Source: Toxorhynchites rutilus septentrionalis (taxonomy: Eukaryota; Arthropoda; Insecta; Diptera; Culicidae). From it: DNA of 64,000 nucleotides. The DNA is taken from positions 298,475,614-298,539,613 of the forward strand of contig NC_073746.1 in assembly GCF_029784135.1 (NCBI RefSeq), given 5' to 3'. A program made the translations under genes and the position numbers. The stretch's first letter is position 1, and every line of letters begins with the position of its first letter. Shown one piece after another: positions 14,821 through 45,263 of this stretch. The notes below the pieces were generated by a model. That model was given only the letters and a program-made list of their open reading frames with translations. It did not search any database and was not told where the DNA came from.

Positions 14821-14949
14821 ACATTGATGTGTTTCATGCTGTTTGGAAAAATCAAGTTGGAGTTACTGATTTTGTTGTTGTTGAGAAACGGTTTTCCCTC
14901 TTTGCTCGGGCATTCAAGTTGCCCTTCCTAGGCACATCATCATTTTTTT

Positions 14950-15177
14950 TTGCTCAATTTGATTTTTCTCGATGGTGTAATGAATCAGAATGTATACTTG
15001 AACATTCTGAAGGAAAATATGAAGCAAAGTGTTAACAGAATGGAATGGAATCGAGGATTCAAGACAATAGCCCAGAGCTCAAGACAAGGAAAGTTCGCAC
15101 ATGGTTACATTATAATTGCTCAAAAGTTATTGATATTCCTCCACAATCTTCCAGCATCAATCCCAGTAAAAAAGTAA
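14950..15177 (+). pseudogene. Tc1-like transposase C-terminal piece, right arm
   Basis: Plus-strand copy of the left-arm gene: FLDGVMNQNVYLNILKENMK followed by frameshifted remnants that run parallel to the left arm up to SINPSKKV. It reads outward to the right end of the element, mirror-image to 14422-14820. Confidence 0.75.
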
Positions 15178-15670
15178 GGAAGTTGTCCGTGTAGGAAATT
15201 TAGAAACCATCAAATTTCTAAAAATAATAATTTTAGAAACCACTTGATAAAAAAATTGCTAAAAATTCCTTCCGAATACACCCAAAAATTCGTAGATAAG
15301 GCTAAAGGCTGCTAAAGATAGTTGCAATGAAATAGGAAATTGGCCAACGCCTTCGAAATCGAGTAGAGATTTCAACCAGCGTACGATTATGAGTTTGAGT
15401 CAATTTTCATACATTAGCACAAACATTTGCCATTTTTAGAGAAATAAAAACCATTATTCTGAAAACAGATAGCAAACATTTTAACTCTCATATGACACTA
15501 TGTCTTTATCTAAATAAAATGTTCCGAAAGATTGTTTTCGACTCTCAAAAGAAAGGAAAAAAGATCTGCATGGTAGGGTATGATTACGGATTTGAGTCAC
15601 TGTATGTTTTTCAACTGCAAGGGTATGTGCTCTGATTTCGAACCAGCGCTGGCTTGTATACTCCTAACTA

Positions 15671-16732: not shown

Positions 16733-16959
16733 TATAGACGGATGCAAGACGAATCTACGGTACAAGGTATACCTGTTTGGACAGTAAACGTATTAGAGGG
16801 GCGGTATATGAAGACAAAATGGTGGAAAACGGAAGAGGGAATGTTTACCTGCGCGAGAGGGAGAGAGAAGTTGATCAATGGAATTCAAGGATCCGCTGCT
16901 ACATGACCGCAGAGTGGTTTTCATGTATTGGCTCACCTGATGGTACATTCATTATTGCC
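16733..16959 (+). repeat. Dispersed repeat X, copy 1, split by the Harbinger element
   Basis: Matches the reverse complement of 21055-21335 (shared tttatagacgg, ttggacagtaaacg, gaggggcggtatat, gttcatgtattggctcacct-like words). The copy stops at attgcct, and its continuation ctttatgtgcacctttcgaa resumes at 19890, directly after the Harbinger element. This gives the empty-site sequence for that insertion. Confidence 0.8.
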
Positions 16960-16962
16960 TTA

Positions 16963-19886
16963 AGCCGGGTTCAGACGGTGCGAGTAAGCATACGAGTCGG
17001 TCTAGTCAGTTACTGCAGTACAGCTACTCACACCGTGTGAACACATCATGCCAGTTAGTGTCATGTGTGATTCGGCGTGCGAGCTACTTCAAATTTTTTT
17101 GAATTTACTCGCACTCGCATCCCTCAAAACGTCAAAAACAGAATTTAGCGCTCGAATCAGGGAGGCCAAATCTTTACATTGTCTTTACATGTCCCTATTT
17201 TTAAGATATTTGAAAATATGCGAAGATTATTATAGACTTGAAAATTATTGAAAAAACAAATAAAACCCTCATAGTTTCTAAGCGGAATCGTTGTTATTAA
17301 ACGGTTTTATTTAGCTTGCCCTGTAATCTGTTTGTATGTTTGTAACATGTCCCACATTAGTAGAAATTTGACCCCCTTCTTGTTGACCGATTGATCTGAA
17401 ATTTGGAACACACCTTTATCTCTGTAGTCATTACAAAACTGCGTATTTCATTATCTTGTAAATCCAAGATAGAGGCCGCTACAAAATGGCGGATCCCTTT
17501 CTTCCTCAAAACCTCATCAATGTGGGTTTTCCAAAACCCCATCAATATGGGTATCAAATGAAAGGGCTTGACTAGCAGAATACAGTTATTTAAGAAAAAT
17601 GCAAATCCAAGATGGCTGCCACTACTAAATGGCGGACTACATAGTTTCCCAAAACTTCATTAATATGGGTGTTGGGGGGAAGCAAACTACGCCACTGATG
17701 ACTTGATCTGAACCTGCGCATCCGGACGGTGCCACTCCATGACGCACCCAGACAATCATTGACAGCTAGCTGTCATCACTGTCATTCTGAAAACTTCTCT
17801 CGTACCACACATTCTTTGCTAATCACAAAAAAGGAGTAGAGATAGAACCCAAAATAAAGTTGAATTCCCAAATTGTTAAATAATTGAATCATCCTGTCGT
17901 GCTTTGAATTTAAAACGAGGAGATCAAATGTAGGTAAAACCTAATAATGTAAAGTTCTTGTTTAATTATTGTTTCTCTTAATAAATACAGCTTTGAGCTC
18001 GCTATACATTGATAAAAACGCGTGCTGAATAGAACCTCCGAAACCCCCGTAACAATGGGTATCAAATGAAAGGGATTGACTAGCAGAACACGGTTATTTG
18101 TGAAAAATGCAAATCCATCAAAATTCTACCAAATGGCGGACTACATATTATGTCAAAACACCATTAATATGGGTATCAAATGAAAGGGCTTGAATAGTAG
18201 ATCACAGTAGATCATGAAAAATTAAAATCCAAGATGGCCGCAATCACAAAATAGCAATATACTTTATTAAACGGTTTTATTTAGCTTGAACTGTTCGTAT
18301 GTATGTATGTATGTCTGTAGGATTGTCCCACAGTAATAGAAATTTGACCAATAGGAACTGACCGGATAGGAACTGCTGTCATTTTAAAACTGCTTATCTT
18401 GAAAAATCCAATTTGGCCTCCGCTCAAAATCGCTGATTCCATATCATCTCAAAAAAAAGGTTGATTGAGATATGTGTATCAAACCAACGAACTTGACTTG
18501 GAGAACACACTATGTATTTTCTGCAATCTACTCAATATCGGTATCAAATGAAATTTTTTGACTGATAGAATACAGTACAATGCCTTTATTGTAGAGAAAT
18601 ATTCTAATGAAACAGATAATGTACTAAAAACTAGAAAATAAAATGAGTAAACAAAAACTTTTTAAATTATAAAATCCATTCATTTTCATTATCCACAATT
18701 AGTGATTTCATCATATGTCCCACTATTTTATTTTAGTCTTATCAATGCCCTAGACTAATGAAGGAGAGGTGTGATAACTACTAACTGCAACTTGCCTAAT
18801 TATTTTCTCTAGCTTTTAGTACATTATTATGTTTAATCACAAATAAACCGTTTAACTTAAAAAGTTTTTTTACTCATTTTATTTTGTTTTGCACGCTGGT
18901 GGGGCACGTTTTCTTTTTGAGATAGTTTTCTTGGGATTCTAAATATAAAATCATTATCGGGCACAATTTTCATTCGAAATTCACTCACAACTTCCAAAAA
19001 AAGTATTGTTCTAAAAAACAGAATACATATTCCATTTAAAAAAGTAGATTTTTATTCATTATTTTAGTTTTTGAGGCGTATTTATTCCTCCTGCAAATCT
19101 ACTATCATTTTCATTTCACAAATTGGTACACGAAGCTGCTGTCAAGGCGAAATAATTCAAAATTTGAAAAATCTTTTAGACTGCCATTTGTAGCACTACA
19201 TACTTTCGGAATTATTTTAGCTATGGATGCTTTCGAGATTCTAAAAAAATATCGACAATAATCTGAACGATATTCCAGAAGAAAGGTACAACATTTCTAG
19301 TTTCACTTATGTAGGTATAGCATCCCTCATGAGTGTATCTTGCGTTGTATTTGTGGAGCAATTAAATCCAACAGTTTTTTCACTTTTTCAGGTGTTATTC
19401 TCAACACTGCTCTGTACTCTCGGGGATCATCATCGTAGAGTTACTTCAATATTGTATTTGTTGCTCCTTTTTTTTGCATCCAATTCCTGGACCGAATCCT
19501 TTTTTCTTTCTGCTTTTTCCGGATAGTACCTTCAGTTCAAAGAAATTCAGCACAAAGTATTTTTAAACACGGCCAGTGTGTGTTTAGCGATAAAATTGTG
19601 TAATGATAAATTCAACTGAAAATCTAAGACGAAAACTGCCAATAAAGAAGTCGATTTCGGATCAATCATCTGACAAATTCGGATCTGATTGCTGTTTCTG
19701 ACGATTTGATGGACATTTGAAAAACCGCCTGGCATCTCTGGAAAACCTGTGCCGTAGTATCTAGTTTCTTGCCAGCAGCTCACATTGTGTGAACGGACAA
19801 GGCGAGTCAACCATTTGTCAAGCGAGTTCACCGGGTCAGTAGCTGCTCATTGTGAAGCCAGCTACTAGCAACGTATAAATGGGCCT
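16963..19886 (+). mobile_element. Non-autonomous PIF/Harbinger element, copy 1, TSD TTA
   Basis: Left end AGCCGGGTTCAGACGGTGCG, right end ...TATAAATGGGCCT, flanked by TTA at 16960-16962 and 19887-19889. The 3-bp TTA/TAA duplication and the transposase remnant identify PIF/Harbinger (known hallmark). The body holds a degenerate minisatellite (about 17400-18250) of units with gggtatcaaatgaaagggc, caaatccaagatggc and atggcggactacat. A roughly 370-bp stretch, 17675-18045, is absent from the related copy at 27748. Near the right end, on the minus strand, lies a broken transposase start. Confidence 0.85.
19165..19525 (-). pseudogene. Harbinger transposase N-terminal remnant
   Basis: Reverse-strand counterpart of the better-preserved frame at 32802-33143, with matching sequence such as gagttacttcaatattgtat and gtttttcactttttcaggtg. 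Several frameshifts make it unreadable as one frame. The nuclease region is missing. Confidence 0.65.
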
Positions 19887-22503: not shown

Positions 22504-23144
22504 GTTTTCATCTGAGAGAGAGGAGCCAGCTGAATGACAGATAGTTTGTTTTCTTCTTATTATATTTACGCATTCTCATCAAGAAAATTCCAAACTGACA
22601 ATTTCAATCAAGCAAGTTGTTGTCATTCATTTATGAGAAAAGTGTTCAAACTTGACGTGAAGTTTTGTTAGTGAGTACATTTGTGCGTTTTATCCCCGAT
22701 TAGATTTTTGACATAGGACTGCGTCCAACAGGAATATATGGGGGGTAAAAATTTGAACACTGATCATGTAGGAAATAATAAAAGATGTACCAGGTCAGCC
22801 CACATCATGGCTTCTAGCGGCATCGGCCCATTCAAACATTTTTTACTTTTGATAATTTCGATATAGTTGTCCTAAAGAATTATTTCGATGATTTCTAAAA
22901 CAAAATCCGAAATTAGAAGCAAACCGACTTTTATGATTTGTTTGTTGGTGGAGATCTTGTGTGAATTTATGGGTGTTTTGGGCCCATTTGTGACTTTTTC
23001 CGATCGTTCATTCAGTTTTCGCGAATTCTTGTATTCTTTCACTGGTTCCAGGTTGATCTATTGCTGCAAGCTCGACGAATCGATTTTTGCAATGTGGGCG
23101 ATGATTGTCTATCTCCGATGCAATTTGAATATGCAGCGTTCTTC

Positions 23145-23234
23145 CAGGTTTTTTTACGCGGTTTTTTTTACGCGGATTTTCCAATTAACGCGGTTTTTTT
23201 ACGAGATACGTATCCCCCGCGTAAAAAAAACCTG
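23145..23234. mobile_element. 90-bp MITE of CAGGTTTTTTTACGCGG type
   Basis: Ends caggtttttttacgcgg and ccgcgtaaaaaaaacctg, inside copy A. Copy B has no such sequence at the matching place (gaatatgcagcgtatgtggaa), so B shows the empty site. Similar gcggttttttt words occur in the larger element at 59444. Confidence 0.7.
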
Positions 23235-23859
23235 TGTGTGTGTGGAATACATAAAATAAGAGCTAATCTTCCAATGGAAATAGCCAACATTGATTTCTCT
23301 CAGGTGCATTTTGAGGAAATTTTGTTTGTGTCCGATGGAAATAATACTAGGTTGACTAAAAAGGATGCTGAGTCTGCATTTTTAACAGGCATTCGGATGA
23401 AGATGAGAATTATACTACCAGTCTCTCATCATCTTTGCCATGATATTCCTGCCCATCACTAATGGACCATTCATATGCAATATTTAAATTTGACATGCAG
23501 GTTTAATCAAGGCAATAGTATCACTGAAGATCCAATCGAATTGACCGATAGTGAAGGTGAACCAATAGTCTTGTCCAAAAAACTAAAAGGGTCAAGATTC
23601 TTTCTCCCCTTTATGTGTGATATAATTTGTATACCACTTCCCATATACAACATATCTGTCGCTTCCAATCAGTCTGCGTAAATGTTGCGCTCACTCTGCC
23701 CTCCCTCACAACACCCACTTCCCGTTTGTGACATTGATGAGTGAACATTTTTTGTGCGAGTTTCGAGCAGGAATGAATTGTCTTTCTCAAGATTCATTGT
23801 ACTCCTAATAAGTGCTCGAAAGATGTAATCTTACGTTGATCGCACTTGATCGAAGAAAT

Positions 23860-24050
23860 TACAAAAAGAATATATTTGACCGCAGTATTTTGCTTTCGGG
23901 CAGCCACACCAGCAGTAGCAGCAGCTTTCTTCTTGCTGGTCGCCTTCTTCACAGCAGCAAGTTTGTTTTTGTTTTTTGCAGCAGTAACTGTTCCAAAATG
24001 ATCTAACCGCTGTACGATTATAATTGAGTGGAGCTGGCACCTACTTATAT
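23860..24050 (-). pseudogene. Histone H1 tail fragment, copy A
   Basis: Minus-strand frame reading VTAAKNKNKLAAV then KKATSKKKAAATAGVAARKQ, the Lys/Ala-rich style of an H1 C-terminal tail, and parallel to the fragment at 25440-25690. A TATA-like word, tgtatataagtagg, lies about 20 bp upstream on the same strand. The globular domain is missing here. Identification rests mainly on the better copy B. Confidence 0.55.
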
Positions 24051-25439
24051 ACAGATTTTTGTGATTTCAATAGCTAGCTTTCAAAACAATTTTTGAGCTG
24101 TTGAAACAAGTTTTTGGATCAATAAGTAACACACATATAACGCGTAGACATTTTATCTTTTGAATGAAGCGGTTATCATACCATTTTTTTTCATCCGGCG
24201 AAGAGGGTTTATTGCTCAAAATCCTGTTTCTCCAATGTAACACTCTCGTTCTCGAAGCTTTGAACTTACACCCCAGTATAGAAATGAAAGATGTAGTCCG
24301 ACGTCAACATTATTTTCACATAAAACGTCTTGCAAAAAAATGTCATGTTGAAATTTTCTACATATTTCAATACTTCCCCTTGGTTCACCGTGACTGGTTC
24401 GCGCTGACATAAGTGTGATCACAACAAACGCGAGCTGGCTCCTCTCTCTCAGGTTTTCATCTGAGAGAGAGGAGCCAGCTGAATGACAGATAGTTTGTTT
24501 TCTTCTTATTCTTTTTACGAATTCTCATCAAGAAAATTCAAATCGGACAATTTCAATCAAGCAAGTTGTTGTCATTCATTTATAAGAAATGTGTTGAAAC
24601 TTGACGTGAACTTTTGTTTGTGAGATCATTTGTGCGTTTTTATCCGCGATTTTATTTTTGACTTAGGACTACGCCTAACAGGAATATATGGGGATAAAAA
24701 TTTGAGCACTTACATGATCAGGAAATAATAAAATATGTACCAGGTCATTTTACTTTTGATAATTCCGATATAGTTGTCTAAAAGAACTATTTCGATGATT
24801 TCTAAAAAATATCCGAAATAAGAAGTAAACTGATTTTTATGATTTGCTTACCGGTGGAGTTCTTGTGTGAATTAATGGGTGTTTTGCGCTCATTTGTGAC
24901 TTTTTCCGATCGTTCATTCAATTTTCGTGAATTCTTTCATTCTTTAACTGGTTCCAGTTTGATTTATTGCTGCAAGCTCGGTGAATCGATTTTTGCAATG
25001 TGAGCCATAATTGTATATTTTCCGATACAATTTGAATATGCAGCGTATGTGGAATATACAAAATAAGCGCTAATCTCCCAATGAAAAGAGTCAACATTGA
25101 TTTCTCCCAGGTGCATTTTGAGGGAATTTTGTTTGTGTCCGATGGAAATAAGAATAGGTTGACTCAAAATGATGCTGTGTCTGCATTCTTAATAAGCACT
25201 CTGCCCTTCCTCACAATACCCACTTCCCGTTTGTTTTTCTCAAGATTCATTGTACCCCTTATAAGTTCTCGAAAGATGTAATTTTACGTTGATCGCACTT
25301 GATCGAAGAAATTACGAAAAGAATGTATTTGAGCGCAGTATTTGATATACTCTTTCTGAAAAGAACTGGATTTGATTTGCTGAAAACACTCTCGTGTTGT
25401 GCGTTATGTGTGGCGACGGTAGTTTTTAACGAAGCTGCT

Positions 25440-25690
25440 TCTGATTTCTATGGCTTCGGCTTGTATGCAGCGATGTTCGAGGATTTGTTTGACTTTTGCT
25501 TCCGGGCAGCCACACCAGCTCGATGCTGACGCTTTCTTGGTCGCCTTCTTAGCGATACTATTCTTCTCTTCGGTGGACTCCTTTTTGGCCATGCTTGAAC
25601 GAACACGATGCTCCAGTGCCCTTCATTTGCACAAACATGCTCTTGGTGGTGACTCCATTCATCAGGATTTCGGAGCTGCTACCTGCTTAT
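25440..25690 (-). pseudogene. Histone H1 fragment, copy B, globular end plus tail
   Basis: Minus-strand reading gives MNGVTTKSMFVQMKGTGAS then SFK, followed in a shifted frame by AKKESTEEKNSIAKKATKKA and GVAARKQKSNKSSNIAAYKP. The (V)Q-K-G-T-G-A-S-G-S-F-K block closes the winged-helix domain of linker histone H1 (known); here Gly is Cys. The N-terminal part of the gene is missing: a TATA-like tgtatataagcagg lies only about 30 bp before the start of the match, so promoter and mid-domain have been fused by deletion. One frameshift sits just after SFK. It cannot make H1. The fragment lies inside a TIR element, so it was probably captured by it. Confidence 0.75.
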
Positions 25691-25789
25691 ATACAGATTT
25701 TTGTGATTTCAATAGCTTGCTTTCAAAGCAATTTTTGAGCTTTGGAAACAAATTTTTGGATCAATAAGTAACACACACCCGAGAATTAA

Positions 25790-25975
25790 TCAAGCAAATT
25801 AAACCAAATTAGGCATATGGAAACTTGAGGGTGCAATGAATGTTTCTATGGTGGTTAGATACCCCTCCCCCCTCTCTTAGGGGTGGCTGCCATACAAATA
25901 AAACACAAATTTCTGCATTACTCGAGAATTAATCAAGTAAATGGGCGGGACGAAGTTTGCCGGGTTAGCTAGTTT
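25790..25975 (+). repeat. Widespread arthropod-type repeat ending in cgggttagctagt
   Basis: Contains the twice-occurring gagaattaatcaa phrase, tggtggttagatacccctcc and the end gggcgggacgaagtttgccg then ggttagctagt. I know this kind of end from many mosquito repeats; its class is uncertain. It is absent from copy A. Confidence 0.6.
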
Positions 25976-26102
25976 TCTTATAAAATGTTTTGCGAAGAAA
26001 TATCATGTTAAAATTTTCTACATATTCCAATACTTCCCCTTGGTTCACCGTGACTGGTTCGCGCTGACATAAGGGCGATCACAACAAACGCGAGCTGGCT
26101 CC

Positions 26103-26592
26103 TAGTGATCCCCGATTTTTTAAATTAATCGTTCATCAGCTAATCGAATACTTTTCAGCAGTTTGTTATTCGATACGATTAATCGCCCCAAATAATCGAT
26201 TAATCGATTCATCGTCACACTGAGCGAAATAATTAGTTAGACTAATGTTCCTCATTTGCTAGAAAGCCATCTTGAATCAAAAAAGTGTTCATTCCGCCTG
26301 AATATCAATTATTATTTTTTACGCTCCCCTAAACTCGTTAACGAAGCTCAATTCGCATTGACGCCATTGAGCTTTGTTTACGATCCCAGAGGAGCGTCAA
26401 AGATAATGATTGAATTTCAGTAAAAAACTGCAGCGGCCATACGTTTTTTTTCTCTGGGTTTGGATCGATTAATCGACGTAAACTATTCGTTCGCTTCGAT
26501 TATTGGTTGCGCAGTATTCGTTCGATTAATAATCGATTTCTGTAGGAAGTATTCGATTAATCGATTAATCGAACGATTATCGGGGATCACTA
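26103..26592. mobile_element. hAT-type MITE, 490 bp, perfect 8-bp TSD
   Basis: TIRs TAGTGATCCCCGAT and ATCGGGGATCACTA; CTGGCTCC at 26095-26102 and 26593-26600. It splits the right TIR of tandem copy B. The inside is rich in attaatcgattaatcga words. Confidence 0.9.
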
Positions 26593-26624
26593 CTGGCTCC
26601 TCTCTCTAAGGTTTTCATTAGCTG

Positions 26625-27375
26625 TAGAGGTGTGCAAATCAGCTCATCATGATGAACAGCTCTGATCATATCAGCTCATCTAAATGAGCTGTTCTTTATG
26701 AACAGCTCTTCAGCTCAGTTGTCAGTGCCGACTTTCAATTTGGGTCCCAAACTCGATAGCCACGAAGCCAGTTTGAAAATGTTAAAATTCAAATGAAATT
26801 TTTCACACCATATTATTAATTACTTGAAACACGTATTCCAGACTATTATTTACAACAGACTCGGCGAGTACAACATTTCCGACATTTTTACTGAGGCTTT
26901 ACATTACAATAGAAAGTTTTCTTCAAAAAAAAAAAAATCTTATGAGATTTTTGCACCGCTTGCAAACAAAGTGTTTTTCATTGAAATAGAATACTCATTT
27001 GATACACAGAAGTTAATTTTCATTAATAATTTGAATTTTAAAAACGTGTTCATTCTGCCTGAGAGCCAATTATTATTTTTGGCGCCCCCTAAACTGGTAA
27101 ACAAAGCTCAATGCCGTCTACGCAAATATAACAGTTGAAAAGACGAGGGACAAATGAAACTAAACTGATGTCTTAACACGAAGAGCGAGAGACGGTCAGT
27201 TCATTTGAATCTTACAGCTCACACACTCTCTTCAATTCTACAGCTCTTTTCTCTCCTTCATCATCATCAAAGTGAGCTGAAGAGCTGTTTGATTTTTTTT
27301 GCGAGCTGTTCCGCGTCAACTCACTTCAAAGAGTCGATTCTTCGGAACAGCTCATGAGCGGATGGCACATCTCTA
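26625..27375. mobile_element. hAT-type MITE, 751 bp, perfect 8-bp TSD, in Hsp83 promoter
   Basis: TIRs TAGAGGTGTGC and GCACATCTCTA; ATTAGCTG at 26617-26624 and 27376-27383. Internal ends are full of agctcatc/gaacagctc words. It contains dispersed repeat W at 26735-27130. It lies between the Hsp83 start region and everything upstream. Confidence 0.9.
26735..27130 (+). repeat. Dispersed repeat W, copy 1
   Basis: Starts ttgggtcccaaactcgatag and ends cctaaactggtaaacaaagc then tcaatgccgtc. Copies lie at 45688-46080 (+) and partly at 58200-58380 (-). A fragment with the same tail also occurs inside the hAT MITE near 26330-26400. Confidence 0.8.
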
Positions 27376-27747
27376 ATTAGCTGATAGTTCTAGATTTTTG
27401 CAGTGCAGACTTTTCCAGAGCGTGTTTTTGAAAAGCTTAACTTTTACAGTAAAACTTTTGAATATTTTACAAAAAGATCAAAAGGACTCGAAGGTATGTA
27501 TATTTCCTATTCTCAATATCGATTATTTGCGATGTGAAATACGAAATTTTCTTACATTTGAAAATGTAAAGTATTGCGTAATTTCGGTTGATTTTATAAT
27601 ATAGTTTTACTATCATTTTTCAGATGCCACAACCAACCGGAGATGTGGGAACCTTTGCCTTAAGGCTGAGATCTCTCAGCTGATGTCGCTTATCATCAAC
27701 ACGTTCTACCCGAACAAAGAAATATTCTTGCGTGAATTGATCACTAA
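27376..27747 (+). pseudogene. Hsp83: Hsp83 (Hsp90) gene copy, 5' part with 5'UTR intron
   Basis: Hsp90 is the cytosolic ATP-dependent chaperone. Seen here: a promoter-proximal tagttctagattttt (a partial heat-shock-element word) at 27384, a leader, an intron 27494-27623 (130 bp, donor GTATGT, acceptor tttttcag), then ATG 27624-27626 followed by [12 protein letters not shown] and, after a one-base loss, [20 protein letters not shown] then FLRELIT. A 5'UTR intron just before the ATG is known for dipteran Hsp83. The frame breaks at the Harbinger insertion at 27748 inside the ACT-AAC codons and resumes at 33685. Because the intron is kept, this is a DNA-level copy or the ruined original, not a processed pseudogene. 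Confidence 0.88.
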
Positions 27748-28220
27748 AGCCGGGTTCAGACGGTGCGAGTAAGCATACGAGTCGGTCTAGTCAGTTACTG
27801 CAGTACAGCTACTCACACCGTGTGAACACATCATGCCAGTTAGTGTCATGTGTGATCCGGCGTGCGAGCTACTTCAAAGTTTTTTGAATTTACTCACACT
27901 CGCATCCCTCAAAACGTCAAAAACAGAATTTAGCGCTCGAATCAGAGATGCCAAATCTTTACATTTTCTTTACATAGAGACATTTTTAAGATATTTGAAA
28001 ATAAGCGAAGATATTTATAGACTTGAAAATTATTGTAAAACAAATAAAACCCTCATAGTTTCTAAGCGGAATCGTTGTTATTAAACGGTTTTATTTAGCT
28101 TGCCCAGTAATCTGTTTGTATGTTTGTGACATGTTTGTCTGTAGCGCTGACCCACATTAATAGAAATTTGACCCCCTTCCTGTTGACCGATTGATCAGAA
28201 ATTTGGAACACACCTTTATC

Positions 28221-29039
28221 TCTGTAGTCATTACAAAACTGCGTATTTCATGATCTTGAAAATCCAAGATGGCGGCTGCTACAAAATGGCGGACTCCTTT
28301 CTTCTTCAAAACCTCATCAATGTGGGTTTTCCAAAACCCCATCAATATGGGTATCAAATGAAAGGGCTTGACTAGCAGAATACGGTTATTTAAGAAAAAT
28401 GCAAATCCAAGATGGCTGCCACTACAAAATGGCGGACTACATATTTCATCATAACTTCATTAATATGGGTATCAAATGGAAGGGACTGACTAGCAGAATA
28501 AAGTTATTTATGATAAATGTAAATCCAAGATGGCTGCCACTACAAAATGGCGGACTACATATTTTCTAAAAACCCTATTATTATGGGTATCAAATGAAGT
28601 AGTAGAACACGGTTATTTATGAGAAATGCAAATCCATCTAAATTCTACCAAATGGCGGACTACATATTATGTCAAAACACCATTAATATGGCTCTCAAAT
28701 GAAAGGGCTTGAATAGTAGTTCACAGTAGATCATGAAAAATTAAAATCCAAGATGGCCGTAATCACAAAATAGCAAATTACTTTATTAAACGGTTTTATT
28801 TAGCTTGAGCTGTTCGTATGTCTGTAGGATTGTCCCACATTAATAGAAATTTGACCAATAGAAACTGACCGAATTTCTAAAATACCTTTTTCTCTGCTGT
28901 CATTTTAAAACTGCTTATCTTGAAAAATCCAATTTGGCTACAAAATAGCTGATTCCATATCATCTCAAAACAAGAGGTTGATTGAGATATGTGTATCAAA
29001 CCAACGAACTTGACTTGGAGAACACACTGTGTATTTTCT
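28221..29039 (+). repeat. 819-bp direct duplication, left copy
   Basis: Nearly identical to 30175-30993; only a handful of differences were seen (for example ggactcc versus ggatccc, tttcatcat versus tttcctcat). Both are Harbinger body sequence, present once in the element at 16963. It contains the atggcggactacat minisatellite. Confidence 0.9.
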
Positions 29040-30174
29040 TTTATTTTTTTTGTATTTTTTTTAAAGTAACTAATACTACTAACCCTAAGTGTTACAGGTG
29101 TGGTAGTGAAGCGCATCTGGCTAATGCATGTTCACATAAGAACTCAGTTTGTAATCACTGTAAGAAAATCGGTCATTTGCAAAGGGTGTGTCTCAGCTTT
29201 CCGGGCCACAACATTAAAAACAATATTAATTCGAGTAAGCAATACAAATATAAGACAAATTTGGTTGAGGAGGGTAATGAGTCAGACTCAGAAGAAGAGA
29301 TTGATGAAATATGTGTAGTTGATGTTGGTAAACTTGATGATTCTAGAGCAGAACCTCTTTCGAAAATATTTTTGAAACTTAAAGTGAACGACGTATTGAT
29401 GAAATTTGAGGTAGACAGTGGTTCACCAGTTTCCTTGATTGGGCTTGCTGACAGAGTAAAATGGTTTAACGACATTACGCTTAATGAGACAAAAGTTGAA
29501 TTGCGTAGTTACTGCGGCAGTAAAATAAAGGTTTTCGGTACCATTGATGTAGATGTGGCGTGTAACGGGAAAATACAAGTCTTGCGATTGTTCGTGGTCG
29601 ATTCGAAAAGGCAACCGTTGCTGGGGCGGGAGTGGATGCGTGCGTTGCAGTTCAATTGGAACGATGTCATGAAAAACTATCTTTCTAGTGTCAACAAAAT
29701 AACGCTGCGTACACCGTTATCCGGAACGGTGAGAAATGTACTCGAAGAGTTCCCTTCAGTTTTCGATGATTCTATTGGAGAGATCACCAAAGTTCAAGCT
29801 TCGCTAACCCTGAAACCGAATAGCAAACCTGTATTTTTGAAATCTCGTTCAATACCTTTTTCTATTCAAGATGTTGTGGAAAACGAAATCAATCGGATGG
29901 TGGAAAAGGGGATCTTGTTGAAAGTTAACCACAGTGAATGGGCGACTCCGATAGTGCCTGTGATGAAGTCCGCCAACAAGGTGCGTCTGTGTGGGGATTT
30001 CAAGCTGACCGTTAACAAGAATCTGTTAGTGGACGAACATCCTTTACCGACCATAGATGAATTATTCGCCAACATGGCCGGTGGCGAGAAATTTTCTAAA
30101 CTGGATTTAGCACAAGCATATCTCCAAATGGTTGTTAGACAGGAAGATCAACCAATACTCACATTAAACACACA
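29040..30174 (+). pseudogene. Ty3/gypsy-type gag-pol fragment: zinc knuckles, protease, start of RT
   Basis: One open frame through about 370 codons. Two zinc knuckles, CYRCGSEAHLANAC and CNHCKKIGHLQRVC, both fit C-x2-C-x4-H-x4-C. After an acidic spacer comes the retroviral-type aspartic protease with VDSGSPVSLIG, then RT from KPVFLKSRSIPF to LDLAQAYLQM (motif A). The sequence stops before the YxDD box, integrase and LTRs. Gag and pol are in one frame, as in several gypsy groups such as Mag (assignment is inference). Both ends are abrupt and the flanks are the 819-bp duplications, so this is a captured fragment and not an intact element. The open frame suggests recent origin. Confidence 0.88.
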
Positions 30175-30993
30175 TCTGTAGTCATTACAAAACTGCGTAT
30201 TTCATGATCTTGAAAATCCAAGATGGCGGCTGCTACAAAATGGCGGATCCCTTTCTTCTTCAAAACCTCATCAATGTGGGTTTTCCAAAACCCCATCAAT
30301 ATGGGTATCAAATGAAAGGGCTTGACTAGCAGAATACGGTTATTTAAGAAAAATGCAAATCCAAGATGGCTGCCACTACAAAATGGCGGACTACATATTT
30401 CCTCATAACTTCATTAATATGGGTATCAAATGGAAGGGACTGACTAGCAGAATACAGTTATTTATGATAAATGTAAATCCAAGATGGCTGCCACTACAAA
30501 ATGGCGGACTACATATTTTCTAAAAACCCTATTATTATGGGTATCAAATGAAGTAGTAGAACACGGTTATTTATGAAAAATGCAAATCCATCAAAATTCT
30601 ACCAAATGGCGGACTACATATTATGTCAAAACACCATTAATATGGCTCTCAAATGAAAGGGCTTGAATAGTAGTTCACAGTAGATCATGAAAAATTAAAA
30701 TCCAAGATGGCCGTAATCACAAAATAGCAAATTACTTTATTAAACGGTTTTATTTAGCTTGAACTGTTCGTATGTCTGTAGGATTGTCCCACATTAATAG
30801 AAATTTGACCAATAGAAACTGACCGAATTTCTAAAATACCTTTTTCTCTGCTGTCATTTTAAAACTGCTTATCTTGAAAAATCCAATTTGGCTACAAAAT
30901 AGCTGATTCCATATCATCTCAAAACAAGAGGTTGATTGAGATATGTGTATCAAACCAACGAACTTGACTTGGAGAACACACTATGTATTTTCT
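30175..30993 (+). repeat. 819-bp direct duplication, right copy
   Basis: Second copy of 28221-29039; on its right the normal Harbinger sequence continues (tgcaatccactcaatatcgg), as in 16963-19886. Confidence 0.9.
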
Positions 30994-31126
30994 GCAATCC
31001 ACTCAATATCGGTATCAAATGAAATTTTTTGACTGATAGAATACAGTACAATGGCTTTATTGTAGAGAAATATTCTAATGAAACAGATAATGTACTAAAA
31101 ACTAGAAAATAAAATGAGTAAAAAAA

Positions 31127-31460
31127 CTTTTTAAGTTGAACTGTTTATTCGTGATTAAACATAATAATGTACTAAAAGCTAGAAAATAATTAGGAAAGTA
31201 GCAGTTAGAAGTTATCACACCTCTCCTTCATTAGTCTAGGGCATTGATAAGACTAAAATGAAATCGTGGGGCACGTTGGATTTCCATTATCCACAATTAG
31301 TGACTTCATCATATGTCCCACGATTTTATTTTAGTCTTATCAATGCCCTAAACTAATGAAGGAGAGGTGTGATAACTTCTAACTGCTACTTGCCTAATTA
31401 TTTTCTAGCTTTTAGTACATTATTATGTTTAATCACAAATAAACCGTTTAACTTAAAAAG
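31127..31460. repeat. Long inverted repeat, arms about 144 bp, loop 47 bp
   Basis: 31127-31270 matches the reverse complement of 31318-31460 with only about half a dozen mismatches. Arms contain cacctctccttcattagt and its complement. The Harbinger copy at 16963 has mainly the right arm, so the left arm arose by inverted duplication. Confidence 0.9.
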
Positions 31461-31759
31461 TTTTTTTACTCATTTTATTTTGTTTTGCGCGCTGGTGGGA
31501 CACGTTTTCTTTTTGAGATAGTTTTCTTGGGATTCTAAATATAAAATCATTATCGGGCACAATTTTCATTCAAAATTCACTCACAACTTGCAAAAAAAGT
31601 ATTGTTCTAAGAAACAGAATACATATTCGATTTTTTTTACATATTCGATTTTAGTTTTTGAGGCGTATTTATTCCTCCTGCAAATTTACTATCATTTTCA
31701 TTTCACAAATTGGTACACGAAGCTGTTGTCAAGGCGAAATAAATCAAATTTTGAAAAAT

Positions 31760-32115
31760 CTTTTAGACTGCCATTTGTAGCACCACATACTTTCGGAACT
31801 ATTTTAGCTATGGATGTTTTCGTGATTCTAAAAAAATATCGACAATAATCTGAACGATATTCCAGAAGAAAGGCACACCATTTCTAGTTTCACTCATGTA
31901 GGTATAGCATTCCTCATGAGTGTATATTGCGTTGTATTTGTGGAGCAATTAAATCCAACAGTTTTTTCACTTTTTCCGGTGTTATTCTCAACACGGCTCT
32001 GTACTCTCGGGGATCATCATCGTAGAGTTACTTCAATATTGTATTTGTTGCTTCTTTTCTTTGCATCCAATTCCTGGCCCGAATCCTTTTTTCTTTCGTC
32101 TTTTTCCGGATAGTA
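31760..32115 (-). pseudogene. Harbinger transposase N-terminal remnant, forward element
   Basis: Same remnant as 19165-19525, on the minus strand near the right end of the forward element, with frameshifts. Its sequence corresponds to the inverse of 32780-33130. Confidence 0.65.
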
Positions 32116-32801
32116 CCTTCAGTTAAAAAAAAATCAGCACAAAGTATTTTTAAACACGGCCAGCGTGTGTTTCGCGATAAAATTGTGTAATGATAAATTC
32201 AACTGAAAACCAAAGACGAAAACTGCCAATAAAGAAGTCGATTTCGCATCAATCATCTGACAAATTCGGATCTGTTTGCTGTTTCTGACTATTTGATGGA
32301 CATTTGAAGAATCGCCTGGCATCTCTGGTAAACCTGTGTCATAGTATCTAGTTTCTTGCCAGCAGCTCACATTGTGTGAACGGACAAGGCGAGGCCCATT
32401 TATACGTTGCTAGTAGCTGACTTGACAATGAGCAGCTACTGACCCGGTGGACTCGCTTGACAATTGGTTGACTCGCCTTGTCCGTTCACACAGTGTGAGC
32501 TGCTGGCGAGAAACTAGATACTACGGCACGGGTTTACCAGGGATGCCAGGCGACTTTTCAAATGTCCATCAAATAGTCAGAAACAGCAATCAGGTCCGAA
32601 TTTGTCAAATGATTGGTCCAAAATCGACTTCTTTATTGGCAGTTTTCATCTTAGGTTTTCAGTTGAATGTATCATCACACAATTTTATAGCAAAACAAAC
32701 GCTGATCGTGTTTAAAAATACATACTTTGTGCTGAATTTCTTTGAACTGAAGGTACTATCCGAAAAAGCAGAAAGAGAAAAGGATTCGGGCCAGGAATTA
32801 G

Positions 32802-33143
32802 ATGCAAAGAAAAGGAGCAACAAATACAATATTGAAGGAACTCTACGATGAGGATCCCCGAGATTACAGAGCAGTGTTGATAATAACACCTGAACAAGTG
32901 AAAAAACTGTTGGATTTAATTGCTCCACGAATACAACGCCAAGATACAGTCATGAGGGATGCTGTACCTGCAAGAGTTAAATTAGAAATGACATTGATGT
33001 GCCTTTGTTTTGGAATATCGTTGGGATTGTTGTCGATATTTTTTAGAATCTCGAAAACATCCATAGCTCAGATAATTCCGAAAGGATGTGATGTTATAAA
33101 TGGTAGTCTAAAAGATTTTTTTTTAATTTTATTTATTTTGTGA
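32802..33143 (+). pseudogene. PIF/Harbinger transposase, N-terminal part only
   Basis: An open stretch encoding LIAPRIQRQDTVMRDAVPAR and LEMTLMCLCFGISLGLLSI then FFRISKTSIAQIIPKGCDVI. This matches the segment of HARBI1-like transposases that precedes the DDE nuclease (I-x-K-Q-D-T-x-M-R, then F-R-I-x-x-S-T-I, known). The catalytic D/D/E residues are missing, because the frame runs into A/T-rich non-coding DNA after GSLKDFF. An upstream frame (KRSNKYNIEGTLR) adds a charged lead-in. Non-autonomous. Confidence 0.8.
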
Positions 33144-33684
33144 AATGAAAATGATAGTCGATTTGCAGGTGCAATAAATACGCTTCAAAAATTTTAATAA
33201 TGAATGAAAATGTACTTTTTTAAATCGAATATGTATTCTGTTTCTTAGAACAATACTTTTTTTTGTAAGTTGTGATCTGATAATGATTCTATATTAGAGA
33301 TTCTCAAGAAAACTATCTCAAAAAGAAAGCGTGCCCCGCCAGCGTGCAAAACGAAATAACAATTATTTCGTTTAGAAACTATGAGGGTTTTATTTGTTTT
33401 TCCAATAATTTTGAAGTCTATAAATATCTTCACATATTTTCAAATATCTTAAAAATAGAGACATTTCATTACATTTGGCATCACTGATTCGAACGCTAAA
33501 TTCTGTTTTTGACGTTGTGAAGCATGCAAGTGCGAGTAAATTCAAAAAACTTTGAAGTAGCTCGCACGCCGGATCACACATGACAATAACTGGCATGATG
33601 TGTTCACACGGTGTGAGTAGCTGCACTGCAGTAACTGACTAGACCGACTCGTATGCTTACTCGCACCGTCTGAACCCGGCTTAA

Positions 33685-33935
33685 CTCTTCGTATGCTCTC
33701 GACAAAATTCGTTATAAATCGCTCATCGAACCCTTAAAATTGGACAGCGAACAACGAGCTGTTTATCAAGCTCATTTTTAACAAGGAAGCTGCAACTCTG
33801 ACTAACATCGATACTTGTATCGGAATGACCAAAACCGATCTGGTCCATAACCTTGGTACGATCGCCAAGACCGGAACGAAAGCATTAATGCAAGCTTTGC
33901 AAGCCGGAGTCAACATATGGAAGATTGCTAGCAAC
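33685..33935 (+). pseudogene. Hsp83: Hsp83 (Hsp90) gene copy, second part
   Basis: Picks up in the same codon where the first part stops: [20 protein letters not shown], then [13 protein letters not shown] and [20 protein letters not shown], the ATP-binding N-terminal domain of Hsp90. The usual I-D-T-G-I-G-M motif reads C for the first G. The match ends near GVNIWKI, short of the GQFGVGFYS loop, so over 80 percent of the gene is missing. A short indel near 33760 breaks the frame. Confidence 0.88.
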
Positions 33936-34024
33936 TGTTTCCATTTACAGCATGCTATCTTTAAAGATTTTTATAATTAAATTGACTATTTGATAGATGT
34001 AAGCGTTAATATTTTTTATTTTTT

Positions 34025-34434
34025 TTATTGTTTATTCGATTTTTTACTCTTCGGCTCATCTTCATAGACAGATATTGCCCTAGGTTGCATTTTAGAGTAG
34101 ACTGGAACAATCCAATAAGAATTTTCTTCTACATCCTTAGCATATTTGAGAAGTGTCTCACGAGGATCTTGATCATCTTCTACTCTCTTGTTCAGACCAA
34201 GATTCCTAATTACATACGACGTCAAGGTGCCTCCGGAACTGGTGACACGCCCCCTTTGTTCACTGGTAGTGGGAAAATTTGGTTATTTGGATTCCGATCA
34301 CTTCCGCATCTTTTCCGGCGATAGGCACGATCCGAGCAGAGCTTGACTCCTCTCATACTTCGCTTCTCATCGCACAATCCACAGATAATTCCATTTCCAC
34401 ACCCAAGGAAAATCTGGTTCAACTTGCCAACGAG
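34025..34434 (-). pseudogene. WDR70-like gene 3' end, broken and shortened
   Basis: The minus strand gives NQIFLGCGNGIICGLCDEKR then SMRGVKLCSDRAYRRKR, a gap, GRVTSSGGTLTSYVIRNLG, and DDQDPRETLLKYAKDVEENS then YWIVPVYSKMQP. This is the C-terminal region of WD-repeat protein 70 (the G-T-G-N-G, R-G-A-K-L-C and G-G-T-L-S-S-Y blocks, known). Between the two blocks the ITPHALPMF region is lost, and a frameshift lies at about 34245. The tail ends in A-rich sequence with AATAAA around 34030. It could be a retrocopy end or the remains of a duplicated gene. It lies tail to tail with the Hsp83 piece. Confidence 0.75.
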
Positions 34435-34804
34435 TTCGAATTACATGTGAATCAGTAAATGGAATAATCGTTCCGAAAGTGGCTTGCGGAAAAAACGTTT
34501 GTTTTTGTTTTGATTTCACAGTTGTATGACAGCTGCGATGAAAGTTCGAAAATCACCGCCCTTTAGGATTAGTGGCGAACGGGCAGAATGCAAAATATTC
34601 GAACTCGTTCGGATTGTGAAATCCAATCAATCCAATCGCCGATCGTGAGCCGGAATGAGGGTGATTATTAATTTCTTTTAACAAATGTAATGTGGGTTTG
34701 GGCATGAAAGTGATTTTCTTTATGGAAAGAAATGTTTAACGCGTAATCTTAATATTAAAAACAAAAGTAACATGCATAACATGAATGTATAGTGAAATTT
34801 ACTC
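34435..34804. other. Nothing recognised
   Basis: Moderately complex DNA next to the WDR70-like fragment. It may include more of that fragment's upstream sequence, but no frame supports it. Confidence 0.4.
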
Positions 34805-35535
34805 TGGGGTCAATGTAATGGGGGGCGATGTTCCCTTCTAACGAGGATAATACTTATGACAGACATACAGCTGTGCTTGCGTTGTACTTCGAAAATTGTA
34901 TGTCTGTCACCATGTACAGCGCTAGAACCATGCAAGCAACTCGGTACAATCGCTGTACCTGTACCGACCTATTTTACCGCTGTACATGGCTACAGTTGTA
35001 CTGTGCGCAGCGCCATAGACGGTTAGTGGTGGGTAGCATGAACAAAACGAATCAAAACATTTGGTATACATTCTTTTCATTGACTTTCTCTTGAGTTAAT
35101 AACTTAGATTGGAAACATATTTGTTGTGTTCGATAGTTTAGACGCTAAATAAAGACCTTTTTCATTGAAATATTGGTGAAAATACAATGCAATAAATTCA
35201 AACTTCTGATTGTCAGTCTGACATGCGGTACAATGTACAACCAAAGTATGTGTGTCATGCTATCGTGGTACCTGTACAACGCTGTACACGTACAGCGCTA
35301 GTACAGTTGTATGTCTGTCCATGGTATAAGGAACCGAAACGGTCCAATGTTGCCGCTGTGACGCAATCCGTGTCAGCCGCCGAACCGTCATCGGAAACAG
35401 CGGCTTTTCGCAAGTAAAACTGTGTTTGCTCGGTTAGTTTGAAAATTTAGGAGGCGATCCTTTAGTAAGATCCGACCGAGCCATAGCGAGCGTCGGACGG
35501 CACACGTTTGCCTGGTGCATTACGTTAGCCCGGTT
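34805..35535 (+). repeat. Structured repeat Z, copy 1, interrupted
   Basis: Matches 53640-53945: gtcaatgtaatgggg...acgaggata on the left of the insert and ataaggaaccg, tgacgcaatccg, gatccgaccgagc-tagcgagcgtcggacgg and gcccggttaatt on the right. The hairpin-forming words are kept in both copies. Confidence 0.75.
34850..35327. mobile_element. TIR element inside repeat Z copy 1
   Basis: Ends atacttatgacagacataca and tgtatgtctgtccatggtat are inverted with a few differences, continuing into cgttgtac/gtacagcg. The inside has more gtacagcgctag words. The target duplication is unclear (ATAA or TA). Confidence 0.6.
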
Positions 35536-40300: not shown

Positions 40301-43300
40301 TCACCTTATCAAAGAAACCGCATTATTTGGTGAAAGCAGCAATTCTGCAATCGATCGATGATTTCAATTGTCGGGAAGGGGAGTGTTTGAAATGCGAAAT
40401 AAGAATTTTATTGGAAACTGCGACATGTGATTTTATCACTCAGAATTTATTCTAAGAAAACTGAAGGTTTGAATTCAATATCGATCAACGGCTATCTCGG
40501 TTGAAGATTTATTTGTAACTGACTCGAAATATATCTCATCTCCTGTTATTTATCTCTTGTCTTCGACTCTAGCGATCGATCGTTTATGAGCTGACCATTT
40601 GTGTCCTAGTTACTGACGAATATAATGATTGAACTCACCATTCCTCTTTTCTAAGCAGCTATACTAGTTTGGGCTCAGGTTCAGGCCAGTGGTTCAACAG
40701 GGAGTATTATTTGCGCTGGGTATTCTTCCTTTCCTTCCTTTGAGCATTAATAATTCTTTTCCGGCTGAACGAAGTGGAATGATAATCACTTGGTAAAGAT
40801 AAAATGTCTAAGAGTTATATGCTTGTTACTTATTCATCGGAAAACTTTTTGCAATAGATTGAAAACTGTTTTGAGAGTAGGTTATTGAAACTATTACTGT
40901 CTAACTCATTGAAGATGCTTGCATTTATGTGACTATATGTTCCCGAACAAGGACACATGATCAAGTCTTCTGGGGAAATCGTCTGCAGATACATGCTGCG
41001 AGTGTTTTTTACTCGCTCGACGCAAAATCAAACCACCCCGTATTTTTTAGGACCACCAACAAAGTTCAAATGAGTTGAATTTCATGTGTATCCCTGTATA
41101 AATAATTCCATATCCATTCACACACTAACAATCAGGGCTCGGGCAAAGTCATAATTCAACTGATTTTTTCTCTATTATAGTAACTTTCAACACATTTTGG
41201 CTGGTTCGTCACTTTTTACTTCCATTTTTGGAAGAATTTCGAGAGCGAGAATTAACTCGTGACCTTTAGCGTGAGAGGCATGGATGTTACCACTACGCCA
41301 GATCGCCGTCGATTCAACTGAGGATCTATGACGGACTATGAAGAATGTCGCCTTCGTATTCAATTGGAAATGAGTTTTGGATTCTTCCAACAGTTTCTCC
41401 GTCAGTCGGGCGTTTAGTTGCTATCTCTCTCTACGACTCGACTATCGCGTTTCATTCTTCCCCGTCAAATGGACTTCAACGAAGTTTTTCAGAAGAACAG
41501 GAAAGCATCAATGATTTTTGTTTTTCTGCTTCAAATATCTAATTAATGGCAAACAGTATTGATATTGTTCTTCTCAATTTCTTTCAAAGTTTTTCAAATC
41601 TTCTTTCTCGTTTATTTATCTGCGAAGACTTAAAATTTTGTTTTTCATGGCGTACTTATTCTGAAAGCACAAAAATTAGTGAGATTCTCGTTTACTGATC
41701 TCTTCGAGAAAAATCAATTCAGATCGATTGACAATCTTGGACAATTTCGGACGAACTATTGCAGGTCTTATAAACGTGACGATCCGGCAACGGAATGCCA
41801 TAAACATATTCCGTCTTCCAAAAATGAACCTGTTTTTATTTCTAATCTCTTGTTTTTTTTCTGTATGTTTCCTGTCGACGAAACTCATTGTTAATTTCGT
41901 AAATTCGCTACTCACGCTTGTCATTCACACCATCACTCTATCACTTAACTTTCCGACTTTATCAATTCTAAATATTCTTCATATTTCCTAGAGGCTAGCC
42001 AGTGGACAACAACCTAATCGGAATTGAGGTATTACAGCTTGGGGACTTTATGAGCAATTTTTGTCTTGAGCTGATAGCAAAAGGTATCAAATCACTTCGA
42101 AATGTTTCGTTCTATTATGTTACATCTTTATTGTTCCTTCCAAATGCGCTCCCGATTTAAGATGTTGTCGCTCTTAACCAATATCATAACTTTTTATTTA
42201 TAGTCTAGTTTATGTCATTTGAGATAATTCAACCATACCGTATACTGATGCTTTGGTCTGTATAATGTCATTTTGGTTATTTTGGAAATATTATTTGAGA
42301 ATGAGGAAATCGTAAAACCGTTTGTTTGAGATCACACCACCAAATTTAATACAGATAAAAACAGTAGACGAAGGCGCACTGTGCAAAAAATCATGTTCAA
42401 GTAATGCTCCGGAATTAATTGAATTCATGCCTTCCGGATAACCATGGTGTTAAGCAAATTTGTTGTATTTGAATCGATTACCCAATATGAGTGTGTTAAT
42501 TAGAGATTTCAGAATATCAAGCAAACTTGTAGTGAACACAAATATACTCACATCTCCCTTGGATGCTTCTTCATTTTGTAGTGTGCTTGTTTACGCTGCT
42601 GGAGTTCCTCCTCTGGGATCGATTGTACATCCTCTAGATTGTCCACTCCCAGTTCTCCAAGAAGTCTGTTTTTAACCTTTTCCCAATTCCATAGCATGCT
42701 AGCCTTGCGTTTCAACTTATTGTGTATCTCCGGTTGATTTTCGTACTTTCCGCGCACCCACGGAGGATAATCGACCCAGTTTATTCCGGCTTCGGAGCAT
42801 GTGCTGCTTCCTTCATCATCCGCTGAGTAGCCCTGCTGCTCGCACAATGATTTCTCTGGTTTCGGATCTAGATCCAAAATAGCGGCGAGACTTTCAAGAA
42901 CTACGGAGGCTTCCTCTTTGATCGTTTGGAACGCTTTCCCAAACTGATACTTCAGATGGGGAGCCTTTGGAGGAGTAGTCGATGCTCGTTTCTGCTCCTC
43001 GGCGATCTCATCCTCGGTCGGATAGATATATTTTTTGTAGTCGATTGGATCTTTGTACTTCTTATGCTTACTCAAGTATTTAGCGCGGTGTAATTTGGCG
43101 TCGATCTTACGCCGGCTAATATCACAGTACTTACTAGCGTACTCATTGTACATTCCATCTTTGAGAGCAGTTTTGTCCCTGCAGAAGTGAGGAAGAACGA
43201 ATTCTTTGTCGATGATAAGCATAGGTTCCTCTTCGTCTCCTGACCAAACCACCTTTCGCGGTACAAAGTCTTCCTCAGGCTGTACGATTCTCACCGGTGG

Positions 43301-44365
43301 CGATTTCGAGGGATCTAGATCGGGATGTGCTTCCAGTTCCGCTTGGGCGTCTTCCTCTATTTTCGCCAATGTTTCCTTAAAATTTAGGTTTGCTTGATTG
43401 ACCTGATCTTCCAAATCACCGCGCGAATATACGCGTAAATAATTATTTAGTTCTGCTCGCAACATCTCATTTTCAATGCTCAACTCGAGGATTTGCTGTG
43501 TGTGTTGAACGTCGTTTTCGGTCATGCGGTTATGCAGTACCCGCATATTACCCACCAAAATAGCAATAATAGCAGTCAGAATAATACTGAAGGTCACTCC
43601 TGCGTAGAGTGGTTGTCTTTCTTGCGATGCGTCTTCATCTGGAACTAATGCTTGTTCGATGTGTTCCTCTTGGATTAGGGCATGCTTATCATCGTCTTCG
43701 GATTCCTCCTCCGCCTCATCCAAATTTTGTGCGAGATGCTGTGAGTTGTACCATTGCATACAAGGTTGTTTTCCGAAAGCGCAGGTGCTGTAAAAGATCA
43801 AGAGAACATTTGTTTATTTGGACATTATTGACCAAATCGTCATAAAAATAACTTACTCGACGTCACATTCACCAGATATTGATTCTTTTTCACCATCTTC
43901 CTCAACTTCGCTATCATTTTCTTTAACATCTTCTGTTCTTGCTGGAACATCTTCGTCGAAGCGATTACCGCCCTTATCGTAGGGGATTTCCGTGCAATCA
44001 CTTTCCACTTTTTTTCTGCGCTTGCCTTCTTTCTTAGCTCCAGTTGGGGGTGTTGCTTCCTGGGGTTCAATTTTGTTTTCCACCGAGGTGACCATATCAG
44101 GCTGGTTGCTTTTGCTTCCACCTTGGGCCTGCTCTGCCGCCTGGAGTTCCATTTCACTATTCAAGTTTTCGCTTCGACCTTCCGCACGAACCGCATCAGG
44201 TTGATTCCCTTTCTCTACACGTTCCGGCAGGGTCGTTTCCGGGAGTTCAATTTCTTCCTCCGAGTTTGTATCCTTTACCATAATCCACGTGTCGCCATCG
44301 TCTTCATCGGAGGGAGCATGATCTCGCACTGGGACCTGCTTCGGATCGGACCCTTGTTCGTCCAT
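37336..44365 (-). CDS. Single-pass membrane protein, CCPG1/PBXIP1-like candidate ER-phagy receptor
   Basis: Three coding exons joined in phase: 44365-43857, 43787-42552 and 38119-37336; introns 43788-43856 (GTAAGT...TTTTACAG) and 38120-42551 (GTGAGT...TTCTACAG). A splice acceptor (tttttctcag) two bases before the ATG means a 5'UTR exon upstream. Product about 842 residues. Residues 1-230 are acidic and carry D-T-W27-I-M-V30 after an acidic run, a canonical LC3-interacting motif (W-x-x-V). One membrane segment lies at about 231-250 (AGVTFSIILTAIIAILVGN), then a coiled coil (about 253-300), a mid-region with conserved-looking Cys, Trp and Tyr, and from 583 a tail of Lys, Asp, His and Arg with D- and H-runs. 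Membrane orientation and the CCPG1/PBXIP1 comparison are inference from layout and the LIR, not from clear sequence identity. A 3' AATAAA lies near 37080. Confidence 0.85.
38120..42551 (-). other. 4.4-kb intron of the membrane-protein gene
   Basis: Holds no second gene that I recognise. Contents: gtcagtgggatac repeated at 38699 and 38742, a short tatatata run at 39222, a repeat Z relative at 39262-39440, a direct repeat of about 90 bp (40020-40110 and 40710-40790: gagcattaataa-tcttttccg, gaatgataat), and a segment at 41165-41235 that is inverted at 49252-49340. Confidence 0.7.
39262..39440 (+). repeat. Repeat Z, possible degenerate copy 2
   Basis: Parallels 53615-53745 in order: tattataagtttatt, attctgagga, gcggccc-like gtggcccc, gatgcagtccaagtc. 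Similarity is weak. Confidence 0.4.
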
Positions 44366-45263
44366 CGCTGAGAAAAACAAAACCAAACCAAAAAGATATT
44401 AGTGAAACAACGTGTAATAATTCATTATGTATGTGCTTGTTTCACTAGCGCGGCATTTGAGAGTTTCTAGACTCACGAGCGAATAGTGGTGTTTGTAGTA
44501 ATGTTCTGGTTAACTTTGTAGACAGTATAGTCCACAAAGTAGCATCAACCTTTCTAAGATATGTCACAAATTGTGCTCTTCTATATTCGCCGTCGCTTTC
44601 CCGTTACACTTTGTGATACATTTTTATAAATAACTCAAGCAGTCAAATTTTCCTCACCTCTCATATAGAATGTTATGGAACAGTCTCTTTGGTATGGGGG
44701 ATGTGCTCGCCAGGGAGCACGAGGATACACTGCGAATTTCAATCGCAGATTGACGCTGGAATGCGCTTGGAGGAAAGGACAAAAAGAATGCTGCCTGGCG
44801 ATGTTAAGCAGCCGGTTCAGTTGAATTGCCCTTCGCGTAGAAAATATGGGAAGGGATTACTCACACATTTGTAAGCGCTGTGTGTGGTGTGGATGAGGGA
44901 AACGCAAATGTAGTGAGGGTGATTCGGAAACAAAGATAGTGAATTGGTATTCCGAAGTGGTGTTTGTTTACTACCTGCATGTTGTCCTTTTTTCTGTATA
45001 TCCATGGCTTAGTGCTTGTTGAGTTAGGTTCAGCGCACTCAGGTATTCGCGCTATCCCGTTTTCATTTTTCCTTAAATCGCATTTTTTAAATATTCAAAA
45101 ACGTTCCGTCTGGAGGATGCTGAAGGCAGATTCTCTGTTTTGTTGTTTGTTTGGTAGATTGAGATGTGCACATCAGAAGGACTTTCATTGCATTTACTGT
45201 ACACAATTTTACAATCGAGAATCGACGACATTGTAGATTACTTCGTTTCACTTTAGAATATCC
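44366..45263 (-). promoter_or_regulatory. Upstream region of the membrane-protein gene
   Basis: Should hold the non-coding first exon implied by the acceptor at 44368. A donor-like gag/gtgagg on the minus strand near 44656 is a candidate end of that exon. No TATA box is clear. Confidence 0.4.

Follow-up and report, generated by a model that had tools for sequence, protein, structure and literature searches.

A decayed Hsp83 fragment split within one codon by a pair of PIF/Harbinger-like transposons in the mosquito Toxorhynchites rutilus septentrionalis

In a 64,000-nucleotide stretch of the genome of Toxorhynchites rutilus septentrionalis (assembly GCF_029784135.1, contig NC_073746.1, positions 298,475,614 to 298,539,613 of the forward strand; hereafter the window, numbered from its first letter), a fragment of the heat-shock gene Hsp83 is split within a single codon by a transposon pair. 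The identity of the gene, the exact joint, the duplication of a TAA triplet, the family of the transposons and their arrangement are shown by the sequence. Taken as a whole, we consider it highly probable that a DNA-level duplicate of Hsp83 was reduced and decayed, and was later split by a PIF/Harbinger insertion at TAA. The locus is a new example of a known and common process. It offers two points, neither of them unexpected: a cleanly defined insertion site of a Harbinger family in a mosquito, where the protein frame reveals the empty site exactly, and a relative-rate comparison that can correct the tempting view that the visible transposon killed the gene.

On the left side the Hsp90 frame running from KAEISQ to RELIT ends at 27745, and the AA of the following codon reaches to 27747; the letters ATC AC stand directly before TAA. 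The insert occupies 27748-33681 (5,934 bases) and is flanked on the plus strand by TAA at 27745-27747 and again at 33682-33684, the latter triplet being followed by CTCTTCG. The frame picks up again at 33685 with no break in the order of Hsp83 residues. Taking out the insert and a single TAA leaves the letters ATC ACT AAC TCT TCG (I-T-N-S-S) in one open frame, and the joined frame across the joint, ITNSSYALDKIRY, is uninterrupted. Its equivalent in the mosquito Hsp83 protein P0132 is ELIS-N42-SSDALDKIRY; the two pieces join up without gaining or losing a residue, and the split lies within the codon for Asn in ELIS-N-SSD, a residue which we take to be part of the Hsp90 ATP site.

The joined, frame-corrected peptide gave a single unbroken alignment to Hsp83 in the Protein Data Bank (PDB; 8u1l, E=3.2e-45). 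At a threshold of 1e-3 that search matched 151 sequences out of 177,635 distinct ones, and every name among the 60 matches listed was Hsp90 or Hsp83. The sequence-only reading had staked its proposal on contiguity of the two pieces in Hsp90 coordinates, and this is what was found. The same gene on both sides, the duplicated TAA whose removal together with 27748-33681 restores the frame, and an insert composed of two transposons, here two PIF/Harbinger-like elements in opposite orientation, were likewise confirmed.

The left piece of the pseudogene (27624..27747, plus strand) carries codons 1 to about 42, including two bases of the Asn codon, and the right piece (33685..33917, plus strand) carries the rest of codon 42 up to about codon 119, as placed by alignments. 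The right piece does resume at 33685 as proposed earlier, but recognisable similarity stops near residue 119 at 33917 and not at 33935. Thus about 119 of 717 codons (~17% of the gene) are present and ~83% is gone. When full-length P0132 was compared with the whole window by tblastn (E<=10), 12 matches were returned, of which three lie within the fragment (residues 14-119), the first extending slightly into the insert; the other nine were at chance level (E>=1.3), and no further part of Hsp83 was found in the window. Frame offsets place a lost base at ~27660 and an extra base at ~33749, and neither frameshift is due to the insert. The first 12 codons stand in a different frame, the PDB alignment covering them from query residue 4, and translation from the ATG runs into a stop after 19 codons. 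It should be added that the earlier claim of a restored reading frame holds across the joint, but that this frame is not the one opened by the ATG. An open frame with the middle and C-terminal domains of Hsp90, as expected of a functional gene, is absent, and sequence of the N-terminal (ATPase) domain is present by PDB and protein-database matches. In the protein database, where scores were computed only for the 7,997 candidates with most shared words, the best-scoring protein of ordinary length was Hsp83 of Topomyia yanbarensis (Culicidae), with 76% identity over 100% of 118 residues; 11 entries of 446-1218 aa outscored it at 67-74% identity, and a few lower-scoring proteins attained 77-78% identity over 95-97%.

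Upstream of the ATG, a putative first leader exon (27376..27493, plus strand; its first bases perhaps flank) was placed by analogy with fly hsp83. It is followed by a putative leader intron (27494..27623, plus strand), which begins with GTATGT 130 bases before the ATG and ends with TTTTTCAG immediately preceding it. The same layout of a leader intron is described for blowfly hsp83 in PMC4804476. Since this candidate intron just before the ATG would speak against a processed retrocopy, the fragment likely came by DNA-level copying. The sequence-only reading had held that both the leader intron and promoter-proximal sequence were retained; the former survives as a candidate, but the latter amounts to a mere few bases past a transposon ending at 27375 and is a weak claim, the upstream DNA being packed with other transposons. 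One of these (26625-27375) is bounded by a perfect 8-bp duplication, ATTAGCTG, and another (26103-26592) by the perfect 8-bp duplication CTGGCTCC; judging by duplication length only, both may be hAT-like. The latter is nested in the second of two tandem copies of a different element (22512-26610), which has the ends CTGAGAGAGAGGAGCC and shows GTTTTCAT at all three borders. The tandem copies were aligned with mafft (1143 of 1628 aligned bases identical), a result that is not relied on, with the ends of the second copy slightly off. A minus-strand Lys-rich frame at 25407-25622, histone-tail-like by eye, has a related stretch at 23888-23949.

The insert comprises two elements. The left one, E1 (27748..32393, plus strand), has an intact left end, lacks ~70 bases of its right end and matches 16959-19816 in order; the right one, E2 (32392..33681, minus strand, 1.29 kb by alignment), is a complete, shorter family member in inverted orientation with both termini intact. 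Both outer ends of the insert are therefore the same 'left' terminus in inverted orientation (24/24 bases identical), and they are complementary at 96% over 210 bases. Nothing is missing from the inner terminus of E2, down to its final base, and it overlaps E1 by 2 bases (AG); no TWA triplet occurs at this inner junction. Another copy of the family occupies 16963-19886, with a TTA duplication on both sides; it shares with E1 an internal segment which E2 is without, and has its own extra segment (~17671-18040) unmatched in the insert. The insert as one single element was rejected, the halves being inverted copies of each other.

Within E1 a plus-strand 819-base direct repeat (28221-29039 and 30175-30993; 8 mismatches, 99%) encloses a retroelement fragment at 29040-30174, in which a CCHC zinc knuckle was detected at E=5e-4, just below the Pfam curated cut-off. 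The repeat and the fragment between its arms may represent a large duplication formed with, or around, captured DNA. An LTR (long terminal repeat) retrotransposon with the repeat arms as its LTRs was considered and rejected, for the repeat continues the surrounding element and is single in 16963-19886; no LTR was recognised by eye on either border of the retroelement fragment, no LTR search being run. Furthermore, E1 has a 168-base inverted repeat (31106-31273 and 31314-31481, 96%), of which 16963-19886 has a single arm.

Assignment of the pair to PIF/Harbinger fits the sequence data. The target duplications, TAA around the insert and TTA around 16963-19886, agree with the 3-bp TWA duplications given as typical of the superfamily in PMC4482050, by which TAA is a preferred target. 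Read through, the transposase remnant of E2 had a sole relative among 449 candidates (E<=1e-3), P0241 of Toxorhynchites rutilus (Culicidae; E=5.9e-47, 76% identical across 88% of the query stretch), a 412-aa protein carrying PF04827 and PF13359, the latter presumably DDE_Tnp_4. By tblastn with P0241, remnants were located in E1 (32150-31749, minus strand) and in E2 (32763-33119, N-terminal, readable on the plus strand); all three arms retain only about residues 20-155 of the 412, and none of the copies in the window retains a complete transposase. Because only this part is kept, E1, E2 and 16963-19886 are non-autonomous. The left and right termini of 16963-19886 match at 16 of 24 positions when anchored at the ends (binomial P=2e-5), as expected of terminal inverted repeats. 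In the target duplications, the transposase relative with both domains and the terminal inverted repeats the pair resembles PIF/Harbinger elements, most candidate autonomous members of which carry a second open reading frame, as the same source (PMC4482050) describes them; unlike them, the arms here are non-autonomous, and two inverted copies share a single target site with their left ends outward.

To order decay and insertion, the fragment was compared with six Hsp83 proteins from Diptera (Hermetia, Bradysia and four mosquitoes), and only ungapped columns at which all six agree were scored. There were 105 such residues, of which 22 are altered in the fragment. Over 1,200 ungapped sites of the elements, private changes numbered 38 in E1, 83 in E2 and 20 in 16963-19886; at six more sites all three copies differ and these were assigned to none. 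The 38 changes of E1 are an upper bound on change since insertion, as some of the 38 may predate it. If decay had begun with the insertion, ~7.5 changed residues would be predicted against the 22 observed (P=1.2e-5; at the upper 95% bound on the rate, P=1e-3); the fragment/E1 rate ratio is 2.9, with P=1.3e-4 in a conditional test. Leaving out the first 12 codons gave a similar result, with 19/97 changed against 6.9 expected (P=1.1e-4, conditional 6e-4, ratio ~2.7), distributed as 4/27 on the left (residues 13-40) and 15/70 on the right (41-118). As the fragment has ~2.9 times more changes per site than are private to E1, it is most likely that decay preceded the transposons, and that a relic was split rather than a gene killed.

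Under this account a DNA-level duplicate of mosquito Hsp83, of which only the first sixth (leader, leader intron and ~119 codons) now remains, would have drifted without selection and acquired its two frameshifts. A PIF/Harbinger insertion would later have entered at, and duplicated, the TAA that overlaps the codon for Asn in the ELISN motif. The present state would then be two non-autonomous family members, inverted, overlapping at AG and with left termini on both outsides, brought together either as one composite unit or by a second element inserting into the flanking TAA, with ~70 bases then lost.

Several observations weigh against this account or loosen its parts. Pfam scans of the joined 126-aa Hsp83 peptide and, directly, of the transposase remnant 32802-33140 returned no family, and the PDB search with the transposase piece returned only four weak Crp/Fnr matches, which does not favour homology to a Harbinger transposase. 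An unanchored local alignment of the left and right ends of the family was at chance level (161/1,000 shuffles). The rate test presupposes that neutral rates are equal and that 0.75 of sites are nonsynonymous, and it draws on only three element copies; decay was judged at the level of protein sequence. The core alignment of E1 also runs ~8 bases past the inner junction and adds at most 1-2 of the 38 changes; with 36 instead of 38 the rate result becomes slightly stronger.

That the transposon pair struck an intact Hsp83 and killed it, with truncation, frameshifts and substitutions following afterwards, would accord with the TAA duplication and the joint-spanning frame, both still perfect, but it is very unlikely given the 22 changed residues against an expectation which is itself an upper bound, the two frameshifts and the loss of ~83% of the gene. 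The sequence-only reading had seen here the order of destruction of a heat-shock gene; with ~17% of the gene present, two frameshifts of its own and a rate ~2.9 times that of E1, the insertion does not appear as the destroyer. It had also allowed that the fragment is the original Hsp83 locus, which is unlikely because a genome without a working Hsp83 is implausible. Somewhat less improbable than the killing of an intact gene, and still unlikely, is the capture of an Hsp83 head and a WDR70 tail by a larger mobile element of Helitron or Pack type, with the Harbinger pair arriving later. A decayed C-terminal WDR70 piece (34028-34440, minus strand; PDB 6zym, E=8.5e-13 and 1.2e-3 in two parts; no family in a Pfam scan) indeed lies ~110 bases from the Hsp83 break in convergent orientation, and an inverted repeat (24065-24160 and 40795-40890, 80%) brackets both fragments. 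Its left arm, however, sits in the upstream tandem elements and resembles a dispersed repeat, and no other close bracketing pair was present among those listed (25 of 54 for the window; 17 for 26500-35000), no search for Helitron ends being made. A misjoin of reads from an Hsp83 copy and a transposon in the assembly, for which the repeat-rich region might speak, is extremely improbable, since an exact TAA duplication, intact outer termini and a matching frame are the marks of a real insertion.

With the decayed duplicate as the target, the origin of the pair can be read in two ways. We give about an even chance to the pair having been built in place and never having been mobile as a unit: E1 would have inserted at TAA and an inverted E2 then into the right-hand TAA, after which a deletion or an abortive excision took ~70 bases of E1 and the middle TAA up to the terminus of E2. 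This would agree with TAA itself being a preferred target (PMC4482050), with the complete inner terminus of E2, the 2-base overlap and the missing TWA between the elements, and with separate lineages of E1 and E2, as their private changes indicate; it nevertheless requires that one triplet was hit twice and that a deletion halted exactly at a transposon end. A more tentative possibility is that two divergent members of the Harbinger family, of which one is damaged at its inner end, moved as a composite via their two identical left ends. If true, this composite unit (~5.9 kb including the retroelement fragment) would be a eukaryotic counterpart of bacterial composite transposons. Under either origin the intact inner terminus of E2 would suit cutting by a transposase with subsequent end joining. 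Cut-and-paste elements in paired or composite form exist, e.g. 'double Ds' of maize. As there, two inverted family members stand between a single pair of target duplications; unlike there, the copies are divergent, one is truncated at the inner junction, and movement as a unit is here only a candidate.

According to PMC3774752, hsp90 occurs in several copies in all mosquito species studied, and remnants of transposable elements flank several of them. The present locus is similar as an extra Hsp83 copy amid transposon remnants and differs from those duplicated copies in being a 5' fragment which is itself interrupted. The literature on Hsp83 and mosquito pseudogenes and on paired or composite Harbinger elements yielded nothing on this locus, with partial coverage that leaves such absence unproven.

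Elsewhere in the window, a non-LTR retrotransposon-like frame is present at 2482-3129 (minus strand, within 156-4555; endonuclease-reverse transcriptase PF14529, E=1.7e-14), and a long imperfect palindrome spans 14003-15604, with the arms listed being 87-95% complementary. Two long adjacent frames of 421 and 181 aa at 42548-44398 (minus strand), with no Pfam family above the cut-off, are probably exons of a host gene.

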